Shown here: piece by piece, positions 303 through 19,991 of the stretch
How positions within the stretch are numbered: position 1 is the first letter of the stretch
Layout of the letters: each line of letters begins with the position of its first letter
IMG/VR virus record: IMGVR_UViG_3300021335_001836
Span: 1-28,903 of that record
Reading direction: 5' to 3' (one strand)
Length of the DNA stretch: 28,903 bases
From: a virus
Made by a program: the position numbers and the translations under genes
Notes under the pieces: model-generated
Told to the model about the DNA's origin: nothing
Databases searched by the model: none
What the model saw: the letters and a program-made list of their open reading frames with translations, nothing else

Positions 303-995
303 TTATTTATCAATATTTGTGACACAGACCAATTTGTCGATACGTTGTATACAGTCACCTGCTAGTATCTTAAATAGCATCAAAACTTTTTCATTAGTCA
401 TATACACATATCTACCGTTCATATACCGCATATCTCTATCGATATCATTTATAAACATATTAGATACTTTAACTTTGTCTCTGTTTACTTTCAACCACGG
501 AGATAATGTATCAGGAACAAGATTGTTACCAAATGTCACTTTAAATTTGTAAGTGTCATCTTTTACAATAATAGTGTTTGTATTGTTTTTAATAAATTCT
601 AAATGTTCTTTTGCAGGTTGATGCAATGATTTTGCATTTTTACATCTTTCAGCTAACCGTTGAAGCAATGACAAGTCATTGCAATATACATTTAAGTGCC
701 TATTTTCGCACCGGACTATATAAGGTCTTTTGTATCTAGTTAATTCATTATAGATTGTCCTTGCATCTATAAAATGTTCTATTTGTATAGGTTGAGTGTA
801 ATTATTTGTATTACGTACTAGAGGCTGTCCTGCTTCAAAGTTTGCTTGTAATCCATCTAAAACGGTACAAGCAAACTTGAAGTTTTTATTTCTAAATATC
901 GGAGTAAGTTCGTTGAAGATACTTAGCGAATACAGGTATTTGTTATAGAAAAGCTTCGTTGTATCATAATTCAACAGTTTCTTTTTTTGTGTCAT
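303..995 (-). CDS. Protein of unknown function, 230 aa
   Basis: I do not recognise this protein. It starts MTQKKKLLNYDTTKLFYNKY and overlaps the last 32 bases of clpA in another frame, so its translation is probably coupled to clpA. It is basic and Tyr/Asn/Lys-rich. It has no signal peptide, no membrane segment and no evident metal or nucleotide motif. Three cysteines are scattered (ACTVLD, VRCENR, ERCKNA), with two more near the C-terminus (GDCIQ, LVCVTN). The C-terminal third reads like a mixed alpha/beta globular domain. No in-frame ATG near the N-terminus would remove the overlap without losing much of the protein, so the 995 start is kept. It is the last gene of the DnaJ-deformylase-ClpA run, which hints at, but does not prove, a related role. 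Confidence 0.75.
   Translation of the reverse strand: MTQKKKLLNYDTTKLFYNKYLYSLSIFNELTPIFRNKNFKFACTVLDGLQANFEAGQPLVRNTNNYTQPIQIEHFIDARTIYNELTRYKRPYIVRCENRHLNVYCNDLSLLQRLAERCKNAKSLHQPAKEHLEFIKNNTNTIIVKDDTYKFKVTFGNNLVPDTLSPWLKVNRDKVKVSNMFINDIDRDMRYMNGRYVYMTNEKVLMLFKILAGDCIQRIDKLVCVTNIDK
304..311 (-). promoter_or_regulatory. Late-promoter-like octamer GATAAATA
   Basis: The minus strand reads GATAAATA, one mismatch from the T4 late consensus TATAAATA. It lies at the 3' end of the 230-aa gene. If the octamer occupies -13 to -6 as in T4, position +1 is the A of the ATG at 298, so the mRNA would be leaderless. AT-rich DNA makes chance matches common, so the position upstream of a structural-looking gene is the main support. 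Confidence 0.35.
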
Positions 996-3204
996 AAACT
1001 AGCACCAATTCTTTTTTAACTAGATCAATTTTACATTTGCCGCCGTCTTTTAACTTACCGAATAATAATTGTCTAGACAACGGCCGCTTAATTTCTTTGT
1101 CAATTACACGTTGCAAAGGTCTAGCTCCCATTTTTTTGTTAAAGCCTTTTTCTACTAGATAGTCAAGTGCTTCGTCACTAATAGTTATGTCGACTTTTTT
1201 ATCTTTAACTTGTGCTTTAAGTTCAACTAAGAATTTGCCAACAATCTTCATCATTACTTCTTTACCTAGTTTACTAAATGTAATAATACCATCAAGTCTA
1301 TTTCTAAATTCTGGTGCAAAGAATTTTTTCAATTCTTTATCTTCATAATCGTTGTCATCGTCACCAAAGCCTATTTTGTTCTTTTCAGCATCAATTGCAC
1401 CTAAATTAGTTGTTAGGATTAAAATACTATTACGTGCATCTGCTTCTTTTCCATTTGCTCCTGTAATTTTTCCGTTATCCATTACTTGTAGTAGTAATTG
1501 AGAAACATCAGGATGGGCTTTTTCTATCTCGTCAAGTAGTAAGACACAATTAGGATTTTCTTGAAGTTTAGTTATCAATATTCCATTATTTTCTTCGTAA
1601 CCTACATATCCTGGTGGTGAACCAATTAGTTTAGCAACACTGTGTTTTTCTTGATATTCACTCATATCAAAACGAACAAGTTTTACACCTAACTGTTTTG
1701 CAAGTTGTTTTGCAGTTTCAGTTTTACCTGTTCCTGTAGGACCCATAAACACAAATGCACCAATTGGTTTATCATCTGGTTTTAATCCTGCTTGTGCTAC
1801 AAGTATCTTATCAACAATCTCCTCAACTGCTTCATCTTGGCCGTAGACATCTCCTTTTATATTTTTTTCAAGATTTTTTAGATTGTCTGTTTCTTTTTCA
1901 GCTACTTGTTCAGCAGGTAAATTTATAACTTTTGCAAGCTCAAATTGTATTTCATTACTACTAACAATTTTAGTATCTGTATTTTCTTTAAGATTAAATC
2001 TACTACATGCAAGATCTATTAAATCAATTGCCTTATCTGGTAATTTTTTATCTGCTTGATATTTTACACTTAGTTTGATTGCTTCATCAATTGCTTCCTG
2101 TGTAATAGTTGTGTTATGATAATCTTCATAATATTTTTTGATTCCGTTTAAAATATCATTTGTAACTTCTGCGCTAGGTTCATCAACTGTTACCCTTTGG
2201 AATCTACGCATCAATGCACGATCTTTTTCAAAGTATTTTCTGTATTCGTCCCAAGTAGTTGAAGCAACAACTTTTATATTACCTTTGCTTAGAGCAGGTT
2301 TCAACATGTTAGCAAGATCGTTTGCACTGTTTGAACCTCCACCTGATCCAGCACCACTAATCATATGTGCTTCATCAATAAACATAATAGTCTTGCCTTT
2401 GGTTCTAAGACCGGCAAGCACAAGTTTAAAACGTTCTTCAAAGTCTCCACGATACTTACTACCTGCTAACATACTGCCTATGTCTAACATGTATACTTTA
2501 TATTCTTTTAAAAATTCTGGAACTGTTTCGTTAACAATATTCCATGCAAGTCCTTCTGCAATAGCAGTTTTACCTACGCCTGGATCGCCTACTAACAAGC
2601 AGTTATTTTTATTGCGTCTTCCTAAAGCAAGTGCAATAGTATCTAATTCATCTTCTCGACCAATTACAGGATCAATTTTTTCTTTTTTAACTTCTTGGTT
2701 TAGATCAGTTGTAAATTGACGTAAAGCACGTTGCCCTTCGCCTGTCAGTTCTTCGTCTTCAATACTAGTTTCAAGTTCTGTGTTAATATATTCCGCAAAT
2801 TGTTCTTTGATTAAACCGCCCTGTTCTAAGTAGAAATTACTCATAGATTTCTTTTCAGACATAATACTTAAAATTACATCCGTAAGTTCAATAGTGTTTC
2901 TACCCGCAAACAACACTTGTGTAAATGCACGGTTAAGAACACGCTCTACTGCTTGTGTTTTTTTAGGCTTAAATTTAGTAGTTTCAACTTTTAATTCATC
3001 GCATTTGTCTTTCAGATGATGTTCCAAATTAGTTTTTACATAATCTGCATCTGCTCCATAACCTTTAATGATTCCAAAAAAGGTTTCACTACACATCATA
3101 CTAAACAACACATGTTCTATAGTTATGTATTCGTGTTGTAACTTTTTTGCATCTGTAATTGCTTTATCAAATACTAGTTTTAGTTCTTCGCCAGGCTCAA
3201 CCAT
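964..3204 (-). CDS. clpA: ClpA-like AAA+ unfoldase (Clp protease ATP-binding subunit)
   Basis: This is a 746-aa two-ring AAA+ unfoldase, close to the length of E. coli ClpA (758 aa). Visible parts are a Clp N-domain (about 1-145); D1 with Walker A GDPGVGKT (206-213), Walker B IMFIDEAH (273-280) and pore loop KYRG (about 250-253); and D2 with Walker A GPTGTGKT (488-495), pore loop GYVGY (532-536), Walker B VLLLDEIE (554-561) and FRNRLD (634-639). There is no long ClpB/Hsp104 coiled-coil middle domain between the rings. An IGF tripeptide at 611-613 (NKIGFGDDD) sits where ClpA carries its IGL loop that docks on ClpP. By family knowledge the protein would unfold substrates and feed them to ClpP. 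No clpP is in the window, so the host peptidase is the likely partner. It overlaps the deformylase gene by 8 bases and is a full-length gene with both ATPase sites intact. Confidence 0.93.
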   Translation of the reverse strand: MVEPGEELKLVFDKAITDAKKLQHEYITIEHVLFSMMCSETFFGIIKGYGADADYVKTNLEHHLKDKCDELKVETTKFKPKKTQAVERVLNRAFTQVLFAGRNTIELTDVILSIMSEKKSMSNFYLEQGGLIKEQFAEYINTELETSIEDEELTGEGQRALRQFTTDLNQEVKKEKIDPVIGREDELDTIALALGRRNKNNCLLVGDPGVGKTAIAEGLAWNIVNETVPEFLKEYKVYMLDIGSMLAGSKYRGDFEERFKLVLAGLRTKGKTIMFIDEAHMISGAGSGGGSNSANDLANMLKPALSKGNIKVVASTTWDEYRKYFEKDRALMRRFQRVTVDEPSAEVTNDILNGIKKYYEDYHNTTITQEAIDEAIKLSVKYQADKKLPDKAIDLIDLACSRFNLKENTDTKIVSSNEIQFELAKVINLPAEQVAEKETDNLKNLEKNIKGDVYGQDEAVEEIVDKILVAQAGLKPDDKPIGAFVFMGPTGTGKTETAKQLAKQLGVKLVRFDMSEYQEKHSVAKLIGSPPGYVGYEENNGILITKLQENPNCVLLLDEIEKAHPDVSQLLLQVMDNGKITGANGKEADARNSILILTTNLGAIDAEKNKIGFGDDDNDYEDKELKKFFAPEFRNRLDGIITFSKLGKEVMMKIVGKFLVELKAQVKDKKVDITISDEALDYLVEKGFNKKMGARPLQRVIDKEIKRPLSRQLLFGKLKDGGKCKIDLVKKELVLVYDTKKETVEL

Positions 3205-3706
3205 TTATATACCTTTTTTCTCTTTTTGCTTTCTTTTTCATAGCCATTTCTAATTTAAGTTTAGAAACTCTATCTGTAAACTCTATACCCTGCAAGTGAT
3301 CATATTCATGTAAAAAGACTCTTGCATCATAATCTTCAAGTACTAGTATACACTCTTTTGCATCTGCGTCAAGAAACCTTGTTACCAATTTAATTGGTCT
3401 TTGGACTTTTAAAAATAAATTAGGATAACTTAGGCAACCTTCATACCGTAAATCAGTCTCTTTTGAGATCTTTTCTATTACAGGATTTATTATGGCGAAA
3501 GCATGTTTTAACTCTTTATGTCTTGTAGGTTGCATAACTAGTATCTGTGCATCTAGTCCTACTTGATTTGCACTAATGCCTATGCCCTTATTTGCCTCCA
3601 TTATATCTACCATACCTTGTGCAGTTTTTACAGCATCAATTGTTTCAAAATCAAAAGGTTTAACAGGTTTACTAAGCCAATCACTAGGTGCGTAAATTAA
3701 TTGCAT
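3197..3706 (-). CDS. def: Peptide deformylase
   Basis: This 169-aa protein carries all three deformylase motifs: GIGISANQVG (41-50), EGCLS (89-93) and HEYDH (133-137). By homology Cys91, His133 and His137 bind the catalytic metal and Glu134 is the general base. The enzyme removes the formyl group from the N-terminal Met of new proteins. The C-terminus is short and basic (KKAKREKRYING) and lacks the long helix of the E. coli enzyme. Deformylases occur in marine phages, where they are usually interpreted as helping mature phage or short-lived host proteins. The gene overlaps the upstream dnaJ-like gene by 23 bases and downstream clpA by 8 bases. The three are therefore almost certainly one transcript that covers N-terminal processing, chaperone delivery and unfolding. 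Confidence 0.95.
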   Translation of the reverse strand: MQLIYAPSDWLSKPVKPFDFETIDAVKTAQGMVDIMEANKGIGISANQVGLDAQILVMQPTRHKELKHAFAIINPVIEKISKETDLRYEGCLSYPNLFLKVQRPIKLVTRFLDADAKECILVLEDYDARVFLHEYDHLQGIEFTDRVSKLKLEMAMKKKAKREKRYING

Positions 3707-4520
3707 CTTTTATCTCTTGTACCTTTCTAGTTTCTTCACTGTTTAGTGCTGGAGTTATACCTATAACTTTAACGTACAGATTACCCCTATTATTTGTATT
3801 TACACGAGGAACTCCGTGACCAGTTATATTCATGGTAACGCCATTATTTGTACCTGGTGGTATAGTTAATGATATATTTTTTTGTTCAGGTGTGGTTAAT
3901 ATTACTGTTTTACCTAAAATCAAATCAAAAACATCAACCACAACTTCTGTGTAAAGTTGTTCGCCGTCTCTACGCCATCCTTTTGGCGTTTGAATATCTA
4001 GTTGTACTAGTAATATTCCTCTAGGTATACCTGGTATACTATCATCACCGTAACCTGGAAATTGTACAGTATCGCCATGCTTCATACCAGGCGGTATTCT
4101 TACATCTATTATCTCATTCCTACCACTAGGAGTTTGAAAAGATATCGATGTGCCTATTCCTGTATAAACTTGTGCAAAATCCATTTTATATCCTAGCCGG
4201 ATATCTTTGTTTCTCAAAGGTCTTCTGCGTTGTTGTTGTGCAAACCCTTGACCAAACATGTTTGAAAATAAATCTTCAAATCCTCCCATGCCTTCAAACC
4301 CGTTAGGACCAAATCCTTGCGAATATTGCGGTTGTGGATTATCGTACTGTTGTTTTTTATTAGGGTCTTTTAGTGTATCATACGCTTCATTAATGCCTGC
4401 GAAAGTTGTATGATCTCCACCACGGTCAGGATGATGCTTTAATGCAAGTTTCTTATATGCTTTCTTAATTTCATCAGGAGAGGCATTTCGTGATACACCT
4501 AAACGTTCATAGTAATCCAT
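3684..4520 (-). CDS. dnaJ: DnaJ/CbpA-like J-domain co-chaperone (type B)
   Basis: This 278-aa protein has a canonical N-terminal J-domain (1-60) with the HPD tripeptide at 30-32 (KHHPDRGG), which stimulates DnaK ATPase. A Gly/Phe linker follows (about 68-95, FGPNGFEGMGGF), then the two beta-sandwich substrate-binding domains (about 105-270; RIPPGMKHGD, GILLVQLDI, SLTIPPGTNNG). There is no CxxCxGxG zinc region, so it is the CbpA/type-B form rather than full DnaJ. By homology it would recruit host DnaK to chosen substrates. The start is an ATG at 4520 with a poor ribosome-binding site. It is the first gene of the run dnaJ-def-clpA. J-proteins are known helpers in phage assembly and replication, but which process this one serves cannot be read from sequence. 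Confidence 0.93.
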   Translation of the reverse strand: MDYYERLGVSRNASPDEIKKAYKKLALKHHPDRGGDHTTFAGINEAYDTLKDPNKKQQYDNPQPQYSQGFGPNGFEGMGGFEDLFSNMFGQGFAQQQRRRPLRNKDIRLGYKMDFAQVYTGIGTSISFQTPSGRNEIIDVRIPPGMKHGDTVQFPGYGDDSIPGIPRGILLVQLDIQTPKGWRRDGEQLYTEVVVDVFDLILGKTVILTTPEQKNISLTIPPGTNNGVTMNITGHGVPRVNTNNRGNLYVKVIGITPALNSEETRKVQEIKDAINLRT

Positions 4521-5261: not shown

Positions 5262-5417
5262 TCAGAAATTGCATGAAACAGATGCACCAGGGTCAATATT
5301 AACACTGCGTTCGTCTATTTGTACCTTAGGGTCAGGTTTTGCTTTACAGTTGATGTTTTTTGTACAACTACTTGTCAGTAGTATTGTCAGTAGTATCAGG
5401 CTTAACAGCGTTTTCAT
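5262..5417 (-). CDS. Small lipoprotein, 51 aa, overlapping the o-spanin gene
   Basis: Reading the minus strand from an ATG complementary to 5415-5417 gives 51 residues. They begin with a textbook lipoprotein signal: basic MKT, a Leu/Ile core, and LLTSSC with the acceptor Cys at residue 18. The mature part is short, with two further Cys (INCK, SCNF), and ends ASVSCNF. The first 50 bases lie in a different frame inside the 3' end of the o-spanin gene. No clear Shine-Dalgarno precedes it, so translation may be coupled. The signal is too well formed to be a likely chance product. It may be a second outer-membrane lipoprotein of the lysis cassette, perhaps an accessory or alternative o-spanin. The alternative, a superinfection-exclusion or immunity-type lipoprotein, cannot be excluded. 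Confidence 0.65.
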   Translation of the reverse strand: MKTLLSLILLTILLTSSCTKNINCKAKPDPKVQIDERSVNIDPGASVSCNF

Positions 5418-5769
5418 AATATACAATAATTTCAGTTTGCTGTTCTATGTAGCGTCTTAGGTCTGCTATGTTGATTGCAAGGTTTTCGTAGTCTTTCATG
5501 GATAGTACAACATATGCTAATTCACCATGTTCGGCTGTAAATTCTTCCACAAAGGAATCGTAGTTTTCTGCTGTAACAACATAGACTCTAGTATCTACTA
5601 GGTCAATTGGTTTTGGTCGAGCTACTGTCGGTACTGTTGTCTTCTCTATCTGTGTTACTACTTTTATCTCCGGTTCGCGGAACGTCGAGCAACCAGTTAG
5701 GAAGAGGAGTATCGCCATCGCCGCCAGTAGCGGCTTCCAACTCGCGCCATAATTTAGCTGTGGCACCAT
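5368..5769 (-). CDS. o-spanin-like lipoprotein (Rz1-type)
   Basis: This 133-aa protein has an N-terminal lipoprotein signal ending LLFLTGC, with the acceptor Cys at residue 27. A periplasmic domain follows, with beta-type segments (RVYVVTAENYDSF, AYVVLSMKDYENL), a helix (IADLRRYIEQQTEIIVYYENA) and an acidic Thr-rich end. Its first 167 bases lie in another frame inside the i-spanin gene, the overlap typical of Rz/Rz1 pairs. An AAGGAAGG ribosome-binding site sits in the i-spanin coding sequence just before its ATG. By family knowledge o-spanins sit in the outer membrane and join the i-spanin across the periplasm to fuse the membranes at lysis. It is longer than lambda Rz1 (60 aa). The role is inferred from architecture and position. 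Confidence 0.8.
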   Translation of the reverse strand: MVPQLNYGASWKPLLAAMAILLFLTGCSTFREPEIKVVTQIEKTTVPTVARPKPIDLVDTRVYVVTAENYDSFVEEFTAEHGELAYVVLSMKDYENLAINIADLRRYIEQQTEIIVYYENAVKPDTTDNTTDK

Positions 5770-6091
5770 TCATCCTTCCTTCTAAATTAGCACTATCTCT
5801 AATAGCATCTTGTACTAAATCCAACTCACGCAATCTATTGCGTAAGTTGTCGCCGTATTGTTCGGCTTTTTGTAAATCTTTGGTTAATTGGTCTGATAAT
5901 GCATTTAGTCTTAGATTATCTTCTTTTAACATTGCAATACTTTTTTCGCTAGTTTCTACTGCTGTTTCAAGTTTAGCATTGTTTAGTCTTGCGATTTCTA
6001 AATTAGATTGTAGTTGTTTGACATAGAATAATCCACCTCCGGCCGCGGCCAGAACAACAAACACTAATGCAATTTTTAATCCACTAAACAT
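5603..6091 (-). CDS. i-spanin-like inner-membrane protein (Rz-type)
   Basis: This 162-aa protein has a single N-terminal membrane anchor (about 5-24, LKIALVFVVLAAAGGGLFYV). A long predicted coiled coil follows (about 27-100, with LNNAKLETAVETSEKSIAML and NLRNRLRELDLVQDA). The C-terminal tail is low in complexity and rich in Ser, Thr and Asp. This is the classic layout of an Rz-type i-spanin: N-in anchor, periplasmic coiled coil, and contact with the o-spanin at the far end. The o-spanin start lies inside this gene at 5769. The gene begins 8 bases after the endolysin stop codon. The disordered Ser/Thr tail is encoded by the DNA that also encodes the o-spanin signal peptide, which explains its odd composition. 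Confidence 0.82.
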   Translation of the reverse strand: MFSGLKIALVFVVLAAAGGGLFYVKQLQSNLEIARLNNAKLETAVETSEKSIAMLKEDNLRLNALSDQLTKDLQKAEQYGDNLRNRLRELDLVQDAIRDSANLEGRMNGATAKLWRELEAATGGDGDTPLPNWLLDVPRTGDKSSNTDREDNSTDSSSTKTN

Positions 6092-6099
6092 ACTATTAT

Positions 6100-6948
6100 T
6101 TAGCCTAGTAACTTTCCCAGCGTTTTAGGTCCAACTATGCCATCTGCTGTTAGTCCTTGACTTGATTGCCATTCTTTGACAATACGTGCTGTACCTGGAC
6201 CAAAGATTCCGTCTGCTGGTGCAATGTTAAGTTTCTCTTGAACTTCTGCTACTAATGGACCTCTTGATCCTTGTTTTACTGTTTGATTATAATCAATGGT
6301 TGGTTCTTCGTAGTCGCCACCTAATACATCGATAGCATGTAGATAGTGTTTTTTACGATCGTCTAATCCGATTGTACCACCATTAATTCTTTTGGTAGCA
6401 CCTACAACGTCCATAGCATCACACCATTTGTTAATATTGTTTGTATCCCAAAACCAACATGCTGAATCTAGTGCGCCTTTTTTAGTGCGTACATAGTCAA
6501 CTGCTTCTTCTGGAGTCATTTCCATTTCTTTAGCAAATTGTGTGTAATTGTATCTTCCAGTTAGTTGAAGTATTCCACCACCCCTAAAGCGCCAACCGTC
6601 GCCACTATCAGTATCGCCGTTGTCCATGCGGTTAGCATATATAACGTTCGCAATTCTTTCAGGTTGTCTATGATATTCTTGTGCATCTCTACCTGCCCGT
6701 ATAAAGTATTTAGGGAATATTTTGTTTAGAGCTGCGGCGCTATAGTTTAAGTTTTCACTCATTACTCTAAAGCCGCCTGATTCGTGACCACACTGTGCCA
6801 CAAACATAGCAACCCTTTCGATTGTATTGACTTCCCATAAAGGCAATATCTCACACATTGCCTCATACCAATCTTTCCAATCGTCTCTATGGATAAGCTC
6901 TTCTGCCATCCATTCTTCAAAATCAAATTTAAAATGTTCTTTAGCCAT
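6100..6948 (-). CDS. Endolysin: GH19 chitinase-like domain plus peptidoglycan-binding domain
   Basis: This is a 282-aa two-domain cell-wall hydrolase. A GH19/lysozyme-like catalytic domain fills about 1-215, with the catalytic-Glu motif HESGGF (55-60) and the substrate-cleft stretch RFRGGGILQLTGRYNY (120-135). A PG_binding_1 domain follows (about 224-282), with two GIFGPGT/GIVGPKT-type repeats. There is no signal peptide, so export through a holin is expected. I chose the ATG at 6948 (MAKEHFKF) rather than the longer in-frame start at 6993. It has a good ribosome-binding site (AAGGAAA, 6 bases upstream). The first 15 codons of the longer version would also lie inside the 50-aa zinc-ribbon gene. 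The start overlaps that gene's stop by 8 bases. The i-spanin follows 8 bases after the stop. Confidence 0.92.
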   Translation of the reverse strand: MAKEHFKFDFEEWMAEELIHRDDWKDWYEAMCEILPLWEVNTIERVAMFVAQCGHESGGFRVMSENLNYSAAALNKIFPKYFIRAGRDAQEYHRQPERIANVIYANRMDNGDTDSGDGWRFRGGGILQLTGRYNYTQFAKEMEMTPEEAVDYVRTKKGALDSACWFWDTNNINKWCDAMDVVGATKRINGGTIGLDDRKKHYLHAIDVLGGDYEEPTIDYNQTVKQGSRGPLVAEVQEKLNIAPADGIFGPGTARIVKEWQSSQGLTADGIVGPKTLGKLLG

Positions 6949-7093
6949 TTTCAGTTTCCTTTTGTTCGCAAGAGTTGCATCTGCAATGGTCACAAATTTT
7001 TATTTGATAAGTTGCACCATTATAATCTGTTTCTGTACGATGGTGCGAATTACCGCAATGTGAATCGTGTCCGCAATTTTTGCAACTGTGCAT
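6941..7093 (-). CDS. Small zinc-ribbon-like Cys/His-rich protein, 50 aa
   Basis: An ATG complementary to 7091-7093 opens a 50-residue frame with seven Cys and six His. It begins MHSCKNCGHDSHCGNSHH, followed later by ICDHCRCNSCEQ. The CxxC, CxxC and CxxC spacings with His clusters are a strong sign of one or two zinc sites, and they are unlikely in random AT-rich DNA. The gene lies between the 239-aa unknown and the endolysin, and its stop overlaps the endolysin ATG in the arrangement ATGGCTAA. It has no convincing ribosome-binding site. A perfect TATAAATA lies 5 bases upstream, so the transcript could start at the ATG. It might bind nucleic acid or a partner protein and could tune lysis timing. 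That is inference from position only. Confidence 0.7.
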   Translation of the reverse strand: MHSCKNCGHDSHCGNSHHRTETDYNGATYQIKICDHCRCNSCEQKETENG

Positions 7094-15033: not shown

Positions 15034-15462
15034 CTAAGATGCGTTTACAAAACTAGACGGATCAATACTTACACTTTCGCCGTCACTATATTCTGCACCA
15101 ATTGTAACATCATCAGGTTTCTCATCTGACATTGCAAGGATGCTTTCTGCCTCAACCATTCTAATGGTTAATTTTTCTCCGTTGTCTTGATCAAGGTCAA
15201 TACCTCTAGTCCAACGTCCATGTTCTACAAGCACCCAGTCACCAATATTATAATCTTCTTTATTGGTTGGGCCTTTTGCATACACCTTACCCCATCGCGG
15301 GTAAATACCTCTTGTTTCACCATCGTCACTTCTAATAATTAAACCTGCTTTAGTTTTTTGTTCACCGAAATGCATATGACTTACAAGTACTCTATTCTGT
15401 ACTGGTTTTAGACTACCTTTAATAGTAGGTGTTACTTTAAATCCACCACCGTCAAATTCCAT
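15034..15462 (-). CDS. 31: GroES-like co-chaperonin (T4 gp31 type)
   Basis: This 142-aa protein has a GroES-fold core: KPVQNRVLVSHM (19-30) matches the first strand of Cpn10. The GEQKTKAGLIIRSDDGETRG stretch (33-52) occupies the mobile loop that contacts GroEL, with GLIIR in place of the GroES GIVLT. GKVYAKGP and VGDWVLVEHG-like strands (58-82) complete the barrel. The C-terminal tail is acidic. In T4, gp31 replaces GroES so that GroEL can fold the major capsid protein. The same role is likely here, given the homologous family in marine T4-like phages. It lies 2 bases after the 100-aa gene. Confidence 0.88.
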   Translation of the reverse strand: MEFDGGGFKVTPTIKGSLKPVQNRVLVSHMHFGEQKTKAGLIIRSDDGETRGIYPRWGKVYAKGPTNKEDYNIGDWVLVEHGRWTRGIDLDQDNGEKLTIRMVEAESILAMSDEKPDDVTIGAEYSDGESVSIDPSSFVNAS

Positions 15463-15794: not shown

Positions 15795-16325
15795 TTATCT
15801 TAAGAACTCTCTCCAATCCAGGCCAAACTGGATCGAATCTATTTTGTGTACGCCTATCAAATATAGTACATAACTTGCTACGCTTGACCCACGTCCTACA
15901 CCCCATACAATGTTATTCTTACGCATAAAGTCTACAAGATAAATCATATAACGCAATAAGTTGTGCATATCACGTTCTTTAAAAGCATCTAATTCTTCCC
16001 ATATACGGTCTTGTACGTGTTGCGGACAAGGTGTTTCTGCTTTGCCTAGTACATATTCATATACATTGATGTCTTTGTATTCATCAGGCATGAACCATTC
16101 ACTTTGACATACACCGTCAAAAGTCTGTTGATCTACATCTAATGGAATATACTTTTGTAGTTTGCTAAGACCTTGTTCTTCCATAGCCTCATTAAACTTG
16201 TCTACGTCATCACTTGGATCACATAGTACAACGTGTACCTTATCAGCATGACCAGTATAGATCATGTCCATAAGATCTTTATTTGTGAATCGCGGAATAC
16301 CGAGAGAGTCTGTTTTCATAAGCAT
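15795..16325 (-). CDS. Short DnaE-like protein (Pol III alpha fragment without catalytic aspartates)
   Basis: This 176-aa protein ends in a stretch very like bacterial DNA polymerase III alpha. MHNLLRYMIYLVDFMRKNNI then VGRGSSVASYVLYLIGVHKI (143-162) matches the GPGRGSGAGSLVAYxLGI block, followed by FGLDWREFLR like FxLLFERFLN. The protein then stops, exactly where DnaE continues to the catalytic PDxDxDF aspartates. The first 100 residues are not PHP-like in any obvious way. It is therefore not a working polymerase by itself. It may bind nucleotides, DNA or the host replisome. It follows the 76-aa gene after 9 bases. Confidence 0.75.
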   Translation of the reverse strand: MLMKTDSLGIPRFTNKDLMDMIYTGHADKVHVVLCDPSDDVDKFNEAMEEQGLSKLQKYIPLDVDQQTFDGVCQSEWFMPDEYKDINVYEYVLGKAETPCPQHVQDRIWEELDAFKERDMHNLLRYMIYLVDFMRKNNIVWGVGRGSSVASYVLYLIGVHKIDSIQFGLDWREFLR

Positions 16326-17174: not shown

Positions 17175-19991
17175 TTATACATTGTAATCATAATTTGCGA
17201 ACACAATATATTGATCTTCTGATACACCTTGTGTACTATCAATTAAAACTCTATCTATATCAAAATCAAATATACTGAAATCTATATTTTCAGATATTAA
17301 TTTGCTTGCTATACCTGCACTAGTGCCTGGTTTACAGTAACAAAGTGGTATTGCGTTAATCATTCCAAGTTCAGCTATTTGGTTTGCTTGACTAGATCTC
17401 ATCCATAACGGCATAAAATTCTTTTCAGTTTCGCCTATTGATCTAATGTTATCTTTTATATGATCTAAAGAACTATTATACTTGACTAAATCTTTAGATC
17501 CGTCTACAGTAACAGCTGATAAATCAACTGTAATTGGATTAGGATTATCAGGTCGCAATTTTTGACTTGTTAGTATCCCTGGCTTAAATGGAGATGGCAA
17601 CGGATTCCCTGATCTTTCTAAAACTTCAAATGTTGGTGCAATGTTTATAGGTAAATTATTGGTTGTAACATTTCTTGATTTAATAAAAACATTTTCTCTA
17701 ACATCAACATTTAAGTCATCACCAAATTTAATTTTGACTGTCCCATCTTCTCTTGTGTCAACATCTATACTGTAAAGTATATCATCGTAGTAATCATCAG
17801 GAACAGTATATTTACTGCTATTAACTAAGATCTTTTTCTTGTTGTCTATTTTAATTTTCTTTTTTGTTTTTCCTGGTTTGTTTGCTTCTTGTGGATCTAT
17901 AACATCTAAGTAAACTATTTCATATACAACATCTTTTGTACCTGGAGTAAGTGCTTGTGCTGTTCTTACACTACCTATATGGTAACGCTTACGTTTTGTA
18001 TTTTGTGATAATTTACCTACAAATTCATTAATATTCTTTGCTTCTATACCAGGATATAGTAGCATCTTAATTGTTTTTTGTAATCCAAAATTTGGATCAT
18101 TTGGTCTGTATAATGAAACTGGTGAAAATATTGTACTGTTGTTAATAATGTCTGCAAAATCCCTACGCTTTTGTGTGGTCATCATTGGTGCCATAAATAA
18201 GTTACTGTATAATTTATTATCTGGATCTGCAATTTTAACTGTAAACTCTCTATCTATTGCACTAAAGCCAAATTGATCTTGCGCTGTTATTGTAAAATTA
18301 TAAGTTCTGTCAAATCTAGTTGTATTTCTATCTGATTGGAAAGTACCACTATCAAATATTGTCAAACCTGGTTTTCCAGGTTGACCAAAACTATTAACTT
18401 TTCCTATTATTTCACCGTCTAATGCCAGAGTCAGCCCAGGTGGTAAACTTCCTGATTTCAAACTATAAAGTAATGTACCATTAGGAACAGTAGTTTCTGC
18501 CTTAACTGATAATGTACTAATATAGTTTGCACTAAAGTTTCCAAAATCACTTTGTGTAAGCCATTTGATTGTACTATCTACTTCACCTAATAATCTAATT
18601 TTGAATTGTTTGGTGCTTATTGCTATTTCTTCTTCAACAAGTGTAATTGTTCCTAGGTTAATTGATAATCCTAAAGGTATACTATCGGATAATGCTGATG
18701 ATAAATTTAACACATCATAATCTTCATTGACTGTTGAAAGCACACTAATTACCTGATACGATCTTCCTAGATATGAAAATTCCTGTCCCGGAACTTTACT
18801 TAAATATGCTGTATCAAATTTGTTAACCTTTAATTGTGTTGATCCTGCAGGGGTTTCTTCTTTTGCAAATTTAAGTAGTTGTACACGATCAGCATCATAC
18901 CCTATTCTTTGAGCTGCAACTGTAAAATTATATTCTTTAGTAACTGCTGGTTGATAAGGAACACGACCTGCTATTTCTCCTGAAGTTGAATCTAACTCTA
19001 AACCTGGCGGTAAAATACTAGGCGAACCATCTTCGTTTAATGCTTTTAAATAATAAGTTACTACTCCACTTAGGGTGTTTGGATCGATTATGTCTAATAC
19101 AAGTGTTACATAATTATTTGCTCTTCTAAACCCGAAATCACTAGGTGTTATCCAAATAGGAACTCTAATATGTGTAATATCAGCTTGGAATGTATTTGTT
19201 CCTACTTGCAGGATAGTATTATCTGATCTTAGAAAATCGTCTCCTACGACATAAATTCTAAATGTTCTTTTTGTTATAGAATCTCCGTCACTTACACTAA
19301 CTTCAAATTCATAGTAACGATTTAACTTTTTTGGTGATCGGGTAGGTGTACTTAAATCATATGTAGTAATATCATAATAAAAACTGTCAAAGCCGTTATT
19401 ATCAGGAACGCTCCAATCAAATCCTGCTTTGTCGTCTTCGTCAAATCCTATTTCATCGTATCTTCCTGTTGCTGTTGCTAATTCTATTGCTCTAATAGGA
19501 TCAACAATACCAACAAGTCTACCGTCTGATGTTAATTTTATTCCTGGTGGTAATACTCCACCTCTACTGCCTATAAAGTATTCTAACTTTTGCCCTGCAG
19601 CTATATCAGGATCTTTAACTTGTAATTGAAAATCTATTGGGGCACTATCTAATATAAAATATGTATTATTATTACCTATAGGTAAAAGTCCTGCAGGTGT
19701 TTCCCATAAAGGATTATCAGGGCCTTTTACAACTATTTTAAAAGTTCTATCACTTATTTGATTATTATATGTTGCACGTAGTACAAATGTACTTGTAGTT
19801 TCTCTTGAAACTTCGTGCGGGGTACCTCTAAGTTGATTGCCATCTAAATAAAGGCCACCTGGTAGGCTTCCACTAATTAATTTTATATCAGCATTTAGTT
19901 CGGATAGTGGTAATGTGTAAGGAGCAATAGTCACTTGTTCTTCAAGTGTTAAAATTGTTTCTCCTGAATTTTTAGTCCAATAATTTGACAT
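17175..19991 (-). CDS. Large virion protein with putative Ig-like (He_PIG) repeats, 938 aa
   Basis: The signature LPPGLxLxxxGxIxGxx of He_PIG/cadherin-like Ig domains appears four times: residues 43-57 (LPGGLYLDGNQLRGTP), 147-162 (LPPGIKLTSDGRLVG), 327-342 (LPPGLELDSTSGEIAG) and 516-530 (LPPGLTLALDGEIIG). Each is followed by a strand of the form YNFTVxAxD/R. WITPSDFG and WLTQSDFG repeat at about 281 and 478, suggesting duplicated larger units. Residues 600-938 form a different domain (KIKFGDDLNV, FMPLWMRSSQANQI, CYCKPGTSAG). Such proteins in tailed phages are surface or tail decorations that bind glycans or other proteins. A baseplate- or fibre-associated role is likely here. There is no signal peptide. 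Confidence 0.85.
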   Translation of the reverse strand: MSNYWTKNSGETILTLEEQVTIAPYTLPLSELNADIKLISGSLPGGLYLDGNQLRGTPHEVSRETTSTFVLRATYNNQISDRTFKIVVKGPDNPLWETPAGLLPIGNNNTYFILDSAPIDFQLQVKDPDIAAGQKLEYFIGSRGGVLPPGIKLTSDGRLVGIVDPIRAIELATATGRYDEIGFDEDDKAGFDWSVPDNNGFDSFYYDITTYDLSTPTRSPKKLNRYYEFEVSVSDGDSITKRTFRIYVVGDDFLRSDNTILQVGTNTFQADITHIRVPIWITPSDFGFRRANNYVTLVLDIIDPNTLSGVVTYYLKALNEDGSPSILPPGLELDSTSGEIAGRVPYQPAVTKEYNFTVAAQRIGYDADRVQLLKFAKEETPAGSTQLKVNKFDTAYLSKVPGQEFSYLGRSYQVISVLSTVNEDYDVLNLSSALSDSIPLGLSINLGTITLVEEEIAISTKQFKIRLLGEVDSTIKWLTQSDFGNFSANYISTLSVKAETTVPNGTLLYSLKSGSLPPGLTLALDGEIIGKVNSFGQPGKPGLTIFDSGTFQSDRNTTRFDRTYNFTITAQDQFGFSAIDREFTVKIADPDNKLYSNLFMAPMMTTQKRRDFADIINNSTIFSPVSLYRPNDPNFGLQKTIKMLLYPGIEAKNINEFVGKLSQNTKRKRYHIGSVRTAQALTPGTKDVVYEIVYLDVIDPQEANKPGKTKKKIKIDNKKKILVNSSKYTVPDDYYDDILYSIDVDTREDGTVKIKFGDDLNVDVRENVFIKSRNVTTNNLPINIAPTFEVLERSGNPLPSPFKPGILTSQKLRPDNPNPITVDLSAVTVDGSKDLVKYNSSLDHIKDNIRSIGETEKNFMPLWMRSSQANQIAELGMINAIPLCYCKPGTSAGIASKLISENIDFSIFDFDIDRVLIDSTQGVSEDQYIVFANYDYNV

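Follow-up and report, generated by a model that had tools for sequence, protein, structure and literature searches.

The window, by which we mean the whole stretch of DNA analysed, is a 28,903-base viral fragment (record IMGVR_UViG_3300021335_001836) that carries a clpA gene on its minus strand (964..3204), with 25.7 kb of sequence upstream of it. The gene begins with an ATG and encodes 746 amino acids, arranged as an N-domain followed by the AAA+ modules D1 and D2, with the M-domain absent. It lies in a cluster of overlapping genes with the order dnaJ-def-clpA, where a dnaJ-like co-chaperone gene (3684..4520, minus strand; 278 amino acids; Pfam DnaJ and DnaJ_C) overlaps by 23 bases with def, encoding a peptide deformylase (3197..3706, minus strand; 169 amino acids; Pfam PF01327, 134 bits), which in turn overlaps by 8 bases with clpA. 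The 3' end of clpA overlaps by 32 bases with the gene for a 230-amino-acid protein (303..995, minus strand) that has no assigned family, with no match in Pfam or PHROG. A further protein-quality gene accompanies dnaJ and clpA in the window, namely a GroES/head-morphogenesis-like co-chaperonin (15034-15462, minus strand). Elsewhere, an overlapping pair of spanin-like genes (5368-6091, minus strand) lies beside an endolysin with a peptidoglycan-binding domain (6100-6993), a 176-amino-acid piece (15795-16325, minus strand) matches DNA polymerase families and is possibly a fragment of a split polymerase, and a 938-amino-acid protein with no PHROG match (17175-19991, minus strand) adjoins the tail-fibre genes. 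The search of the window for tRNAs, Rfam RNAs, promoters and terminators returned either nothing or matches at chance level.

The window ClpA has at least 593 relatives in IMG/VR, the best 80 of which are 70-79% identical to it and include a longest contig of 357,559 bases. The genome from which the window derives is almost certainly several hundred kb long, and its source is a large aquatic virus of bacteria, a T4-related jumbo phage. Among the same best 80 of at least 593 relatives, dnaJ lies upstream of clpA in nearly all that have long enough sequence, as it does in the phages Atu_ph07, PAC2 and Phosso, and a homologue of the 230-amino-acid gene (26-40% identity) directly follows clpA in nearly all; def is found upstream of clpA in many relatives, but not in all. 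In a quick tree, the window ClpA falls within a clade of aquatic phages (support 100) that is separate from bacterial ClpA (100). The arrangement of the locus also differs, as clpS directly precedes clpA in 72 of 75 bacterial loci and does not do so in the phage loci. L210-L214, five contigs assigned by binning to bacterial or archaeal genomes, either share phage neighbours or group with the phage clade; they are probably phage contigs placed in the wrong bin. For the window itself, the new clpA is an ordinary result, adding one more member to a widespread phage family.

Domain organisation and the predicted docking loop

The N-domain (residues 1-143; 2776..3204, minus strand) is recognised by Pfam Clp_N (E=9e-7) and by the ClpA N-domain structure 1mbu (E=2.8e-9), and is folded in the AlphaFold2 model. 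The D1 module (residues 165-435; 1900..2712, minus strand) contains Walker A at residues 206-213, Walker B at 273-279 and the pore loop KYRG at 250-253, and the D2 module (residues 440-740; 985..1887, minus strand) contains Walker A at 488-495, Walker B at 554-560 and the pore loop GYVG at 532-535. The arginine fingers and sensor 2 are likewise intact. The earlier note had read both ATPase sites, both pore loops, an IGF tripeptide at residues 611-613 and an adaptor-accepting N-domain from the letters; the motifs are confirmed in register with E. coli ClpA, and the N-domain is indeed present, in a diverged form. Of the solved structures, that of E. coli ClpA is the closest (1ksf, 662 bits, far more than chance would give), and it aligns in a single unbroken stretch over residues 6-738. 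Colinearity over these residues and common catalytic, pore and docking motifs are the likeness to the E. coli protein (1ksf, 1r6b, 6w1z and 7uiv), whereas the differences are an IGL tripeptide there in place of IGF and a window clpA that does not lie beside clpS. ClpB and most ClpC chains align to the window protein in two pieces rather than one, which indicates that it lacks an M-domain. The fold of the model matches ClpA of the ClpAP and ClpAPS complexes.

Family searches lead to the same assignment. The top PHROG is the phage ClpA family phrog_4871 (831 bits, with the second family at 57 bits), and the best NCBIfam family is the ClpA equivalog TIGR02639, yet its score of 866.5 bits lies below the 993-bit cut-off, so that we class the protein as ClpA-like on a phage branch and not as the bacterial equivalog. 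PADLOC matches were much weaker than the ClpA match and were set aside as generic AAA+ similarity. As judged from its sequence, the gene is a complete and genuine ClpA-type unfoldase. Identity to E. coli ClpA is 51% in D1, 51% in D2 and 23% in the N-domain, which is 69% identical to that of the nearest phage relative; by these comparisons the N-domain is diverged and faster-evolving than D1 and D2. In E. coli, ClpS docks on the ClpA N-domain; a search of the open-access literature found no paper naming the ClpA N-domain residues that touch ClpS.

The IGF tripeptide (1366..1374, minus strand) aligns with the IGL of E. coli ClpA, a loop that seats in hydrophobic clefts of ClpP (PMC7707817), and conforms to the pattern [ILVM]G[FY] present in ClpA of 75 of 75 bacterial loci. 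Across 73 non-redundant relatives from the window's clade, the isoleucine is retained in 72 and the glycine and phenylalanine in all 73, whereas some of the highest variability of the stretch (entropy 2.1-2.8 bits) is found at residues 610, 614-616, 618 and 619. An invariant tripeptide amid hypervariable neighbours appears unlike the pattern expected of a bare structural loop. The AlphaFold2 model assigns no secondary structure to residues 608-619 and a pLDDT below 50 to residues 609-618; burial of the tripeptide, which would have spoken against the earlier reading, is ruled out on this basis in favour of a flexible loop. Thus, the IGF of the window ClpA is a real and strongly constrained predicted docking loop, which the model presents as exposed.

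ClpP and ClpS in related phage genomes

No ClpP family match is present in the 28.9-kb window record, and to this extent the earlier note, which described a ClpA without a ClpP, was accurate. For the phage as a whole the absence is uninformative, because the fragment covers only a small part of a genome that is almost certainly several hundred kb long. Relatives encode ClpP. Of 13 related contigs that contain a ClpP-family gene, 12 have it 28.8-65.4 kb upstream of clpA and in the same orientation; the exception is G021, where clpP is located 29 kb downstream. The window reaches only 25.7 kb upstream of clpA and so falls short of even the smallest distance; an absent clpP is to be expected. Only 12.6 kb separates the two genes in PAC2, a more distant phage, so that the distance argument relies on the clade to which the window belongs. 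Where clpS is found on the upstream side, it lies 59-100 kb from clpA.

Among the close relatives, G001, G007, G008 and G025 encode ClpA, ClpP and ClpS, and ClpA and ClpP are found on the sequenced piece of G005, G009, G028 and the contig of L044/L165. The more distant G020, G021 and G023 encode all three. As G020, G021, G023, G025 and G028 were chosen via ClpP, only their ClpA and ClpS are informative; in the converse direction, all three ClpP-picked contigs of at least 245 kb carry ClpA and ClpS. The same association is observed among named phages. ClpP matches were obtained in all ten ClpA-bearing jumbo phages tested (Atu_ph07, 121Q, PAC2, Vibrio 2.275.O, Phosso, GAP32, RaK2, XaC1, Hallingskeid and Munch), as were ClpS matches, which passed the Pfam cut-off in nine and fell short of it in XaC1 (E 5e-4). 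The eight ClpA-less jumbo phages searched (phiKZ, 201phi2-1, Ea35-70, G, phiR1-37, KVP40, P-SSM2 and Aeh1) yielded 0/8 ClpA, 0/8 ClpS and a ClpP-like match in three, strong only in phage G. Fisher tests of the association with ClpA give p = 2e-5 for ClpS and 0.007 for ClpP, values that ignore kinship, seven of the ten ClpA-bearing phages forming a single ClpA clade. The sought-for clpP and clpS genes are found elsewhere in the genomes of close relatives, with no ClpP detected in one long contig.

This contig, G019:C57 (335 kb), carries a ClpA with an intact IGF together with ClpS, and neither a search with Pfam PF00574 (E up to 10) nor an unfiltered six-frame search with two local ClpP profiles detected a ClpP. 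The same searches returned nothing convincing from G014 (330 kb), a contig that breaks 6 kb upstream of clpA; the best score of the local profiles on either contig was 10 bits (E 0.06). Compared with G007, G014 is shorter by 27 kb, and a map of shared genes suggests that its lost part may be the region that holds clpP in G007. G019:C57 looks to be either a real exception without clpP or a case in which clpP lies in a missing part. We note that G019:C57 (L356-L372; also L210) is jumbo-phage DNA that had been placed in a Neomarinimicrobiota genome bin. In G015 no ClpP is found within 52 kb upstream of clpA. G017 and G018 (L114 and L115) contain only a divergent ClpP-like protein of approximately 26% identity with Ser-His-Asp in place, the gene of which lies at the distance from clpA where relatives keep canonical ClpP. 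A minority of the aquatic phage clade may use host ClpP.

The canonical phage ClpPs retain Ser97, His122 and Asp171, as well as L48 and Y62 of the docking region and, except in PAC2, L114; in the aquatic clade the docking pocket, judged by the residues taken to form it in E. coli ClpP, is largely kept. The Atu_ph07 and Phosso enzymes share 63-64% identity with E. coli ClpP, and the aquatic-clade ClpP scores 223 bits against a solved bacterial ClpP. In addition, a 10-residue insertion is located in the handle region, a dozen residues past the active-site histidine, of aquatic (L100-L102 and L130-L209 type; for example L101 1495-2112, minus strand) and PA5oct-type ClpP. The insertion is missing from ClpP of E. 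coli, Atu_ph07, G007/G008 and the RaK2 type, and solved ClpPs align to the aquatic protein over approximately 10-12 fewer residues. The structure predicted at this position is weak, with a pLDDT below 50 at residues 124-145. The aquatic-clade ClpS keeps N34, D35, T38, H66 and E79, with M62 replaced by T, at positions taken to form the N-degron pocket. A new specificity, which had been suggested for the window ClpA, is not indicated for the aquatic lineage, where the ClpS of relatives appears to keep this pocket. In E. coli, N-degrons are made by Leu/Phe-tRNA-protein transferase; sought as a phage N-degron maker, this enzyme was found in 0/17 genomes.

A proposed ClpA-ClpP-ClpS machine and its alternatives

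We propose, with a probability of about 0.7, that the window ClpA is part of a phage-encoded ClpA-ClpP-ClpS machine and not a lone unfoldase that takes host ClpP. As a functional hexameric unfoldase, ClpA would dock onto ClpP via the IGF loop and thread substrates into it. The partner ClpP would most likely be encoded by the phage itself, by a gene that shares the strand of clpA and lies upstream of it, past the end of the window; clpS would likewise lie upstream, on the same strand and past the window, and its product would deliver substrates through the ClpA N-domain. The assembled machine may degrade host or phage proteins during infection. That the window's own phage possesses ClpP and ClpS, that the three proteins assemble and that they degrade proteins during infection is what we infer. 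Given the co-occurrence of ClpP and ClpS in relatives and the limit of 25.7 kb, the lack of ClpP is probably an effect of the fragment, and we have dropped the inference that the phage has none.

Host Clp proteases are exploited by phages, and the earlier note had expected the same here, with a phage ClpA unaccompanied by a phage ClpP docking onto the host enzyme, for which it would compete with host ClpA and ClpX, and diverting degradation in the host. The IGF fits the loop form of bacterial ClpA (75 of 75 loci), the window itself is without ClpP, and G019:C57 pairs an IGF-bearing ClpA and ClpS with no ClpP detected in 335 kb. Against this, ClpP is encoded by most of the relatives whose sequence extends far enough, the window ends too soon to show clpP, and in RaK2-like phages the ClpA loop and the phage ClpP pocket both depart from the usual residues, which fits a phage-phage pairing. 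We therefore regard the use of host ClpP as unlikely, though it is the main rival reading, and a need to compete for it is unsupported as stated, since the relatives carry ClpP and ClpS of their own. It is also conceivable that ClpA acts with DnaJ purely as a chaperone, in remodelling, disaggregation or virion assembly, with no peptidase involved. The steady presence of dnaJ beside clpA would agree with such a role, as would the use suggested for phage ClpA by Iyer et al. 2021 (PMC7824862); however, an invariant docking tripeptide amid hypervariable neighbours would hardly be kept without a peptidase partner, and ClpP and ClpS co-occur with ClpA, making this reading very unlikely.

Equally to be weighed is the origin of the association itself, as the sampled phages share ancestry and several records of the PA5oct group annotate ClpP as a head maturation protease. 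The phage ClpP could then be a prohead protease unrelated to ClpA, with co-occurrence a mere lineage effect. We consider this highly improbable, because the Atu_ph07 and Phosso enzymes are close in sequence to E. coli ClpP (63-64%), the aquatic ClpP matches solved bacterial ClpP with 223 bits and keeps the triad and most pocket residues, and ClpS tracks ClpA (10/10 versus 0/8 named phages). ClpS is a ClpA adaptor and is not known to act in head maturation.

The individual components are not new, as ClpA, ClpP and ClpS in jumbo phages have already been reported (Atu_ph07; Iyer et al. 2021). ClpX, ClpA, ClpB, ClpP and ClpS occur together in Atu_ph07, and ClpA is noted as conserved among Rak2-like phages (PMC6102473), but the Atu_ph07 set is read there as separate functions. 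Iyer et al. 2021 describe some jumbo phages with ClpP and others with ClpS 'instead', feeding host ClpAP, and suggest that phage ClpA may be a translocase or assist assembly (PMC7824862). In the open-access papers searched we found no functional test of jumbo-phage ClpA, ClpP or ClpS and no statement that all three travel together. In contrast to the proposals of ClpS as an alternative to ClpP and of ClpA as an assembly chaperone (Iyer et al. 2021), the co-occurrence favours a pathway run by the phage in most of these genomes. If ClpA-bearing jumbo phages bring both peptidase and adaptor, the separate finds of ClpP, ClpS and ClpA would become one machine, the targets of which could be searched for. 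What is worth following is the linkage of the three parts, the inserted ClpP and the parallel drift in RaK2-like phages.

The phrog_4871 ClpAs of RaK2, PBECO4/121Q, GAP32, PA5oct, Atu_ph07 and Phosso share the architecture and family of the window ClpA, and Phosso shares the dnaJ-def-clpA order, with dnaJ-clpA found in Atu_ph07 and PAC2. However, these proteins are only 37-44% identical to the window ClpA, which belongs to a separate and well supported clade of aquatic viral contigs. Unlike the window, the RaK2-like members are without dnaJ and def neighbours and mostly depart from IGF. Their loops read IGM, IGV, LGM, IGG or MNM, with VGF in XaC1 and IGV in Vibrio 2.275.O. Their ClpP has G or T at position 114, and H66 is gone from their ClpS, as is K84 save in Vibrio 2.275.O. 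Such parallel drift across the three proteins is compatible with a phage set whose parts match, but because it follows one clade it represents at most one or two independent events.

Tentatively, and with more doubt than confidence, we extend the proposal to many jumbo phages, which could possess a self-contained ClpA-ClpP-ClpS protease orthogonal to that of the host, in which the loop and both pockets have changed together, strongly so in RaK2-like phages, whose ClpS no longer has the N-degron pocket. The insertion in aquatic and PA5oct ClpP may block mixing with host ClpP, giving the phage a targeted degradation pathway of its own during infection. The changes in RaK2-like ClpS suggest a putative second adaptor specificity. 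The ClpS-like proteins concerned (L118-L123) are those of GAP32, Munch, Hallingskeid, RaK2, 121Q and XaC1, in which the pocket histidine and lysine 84 are lost.
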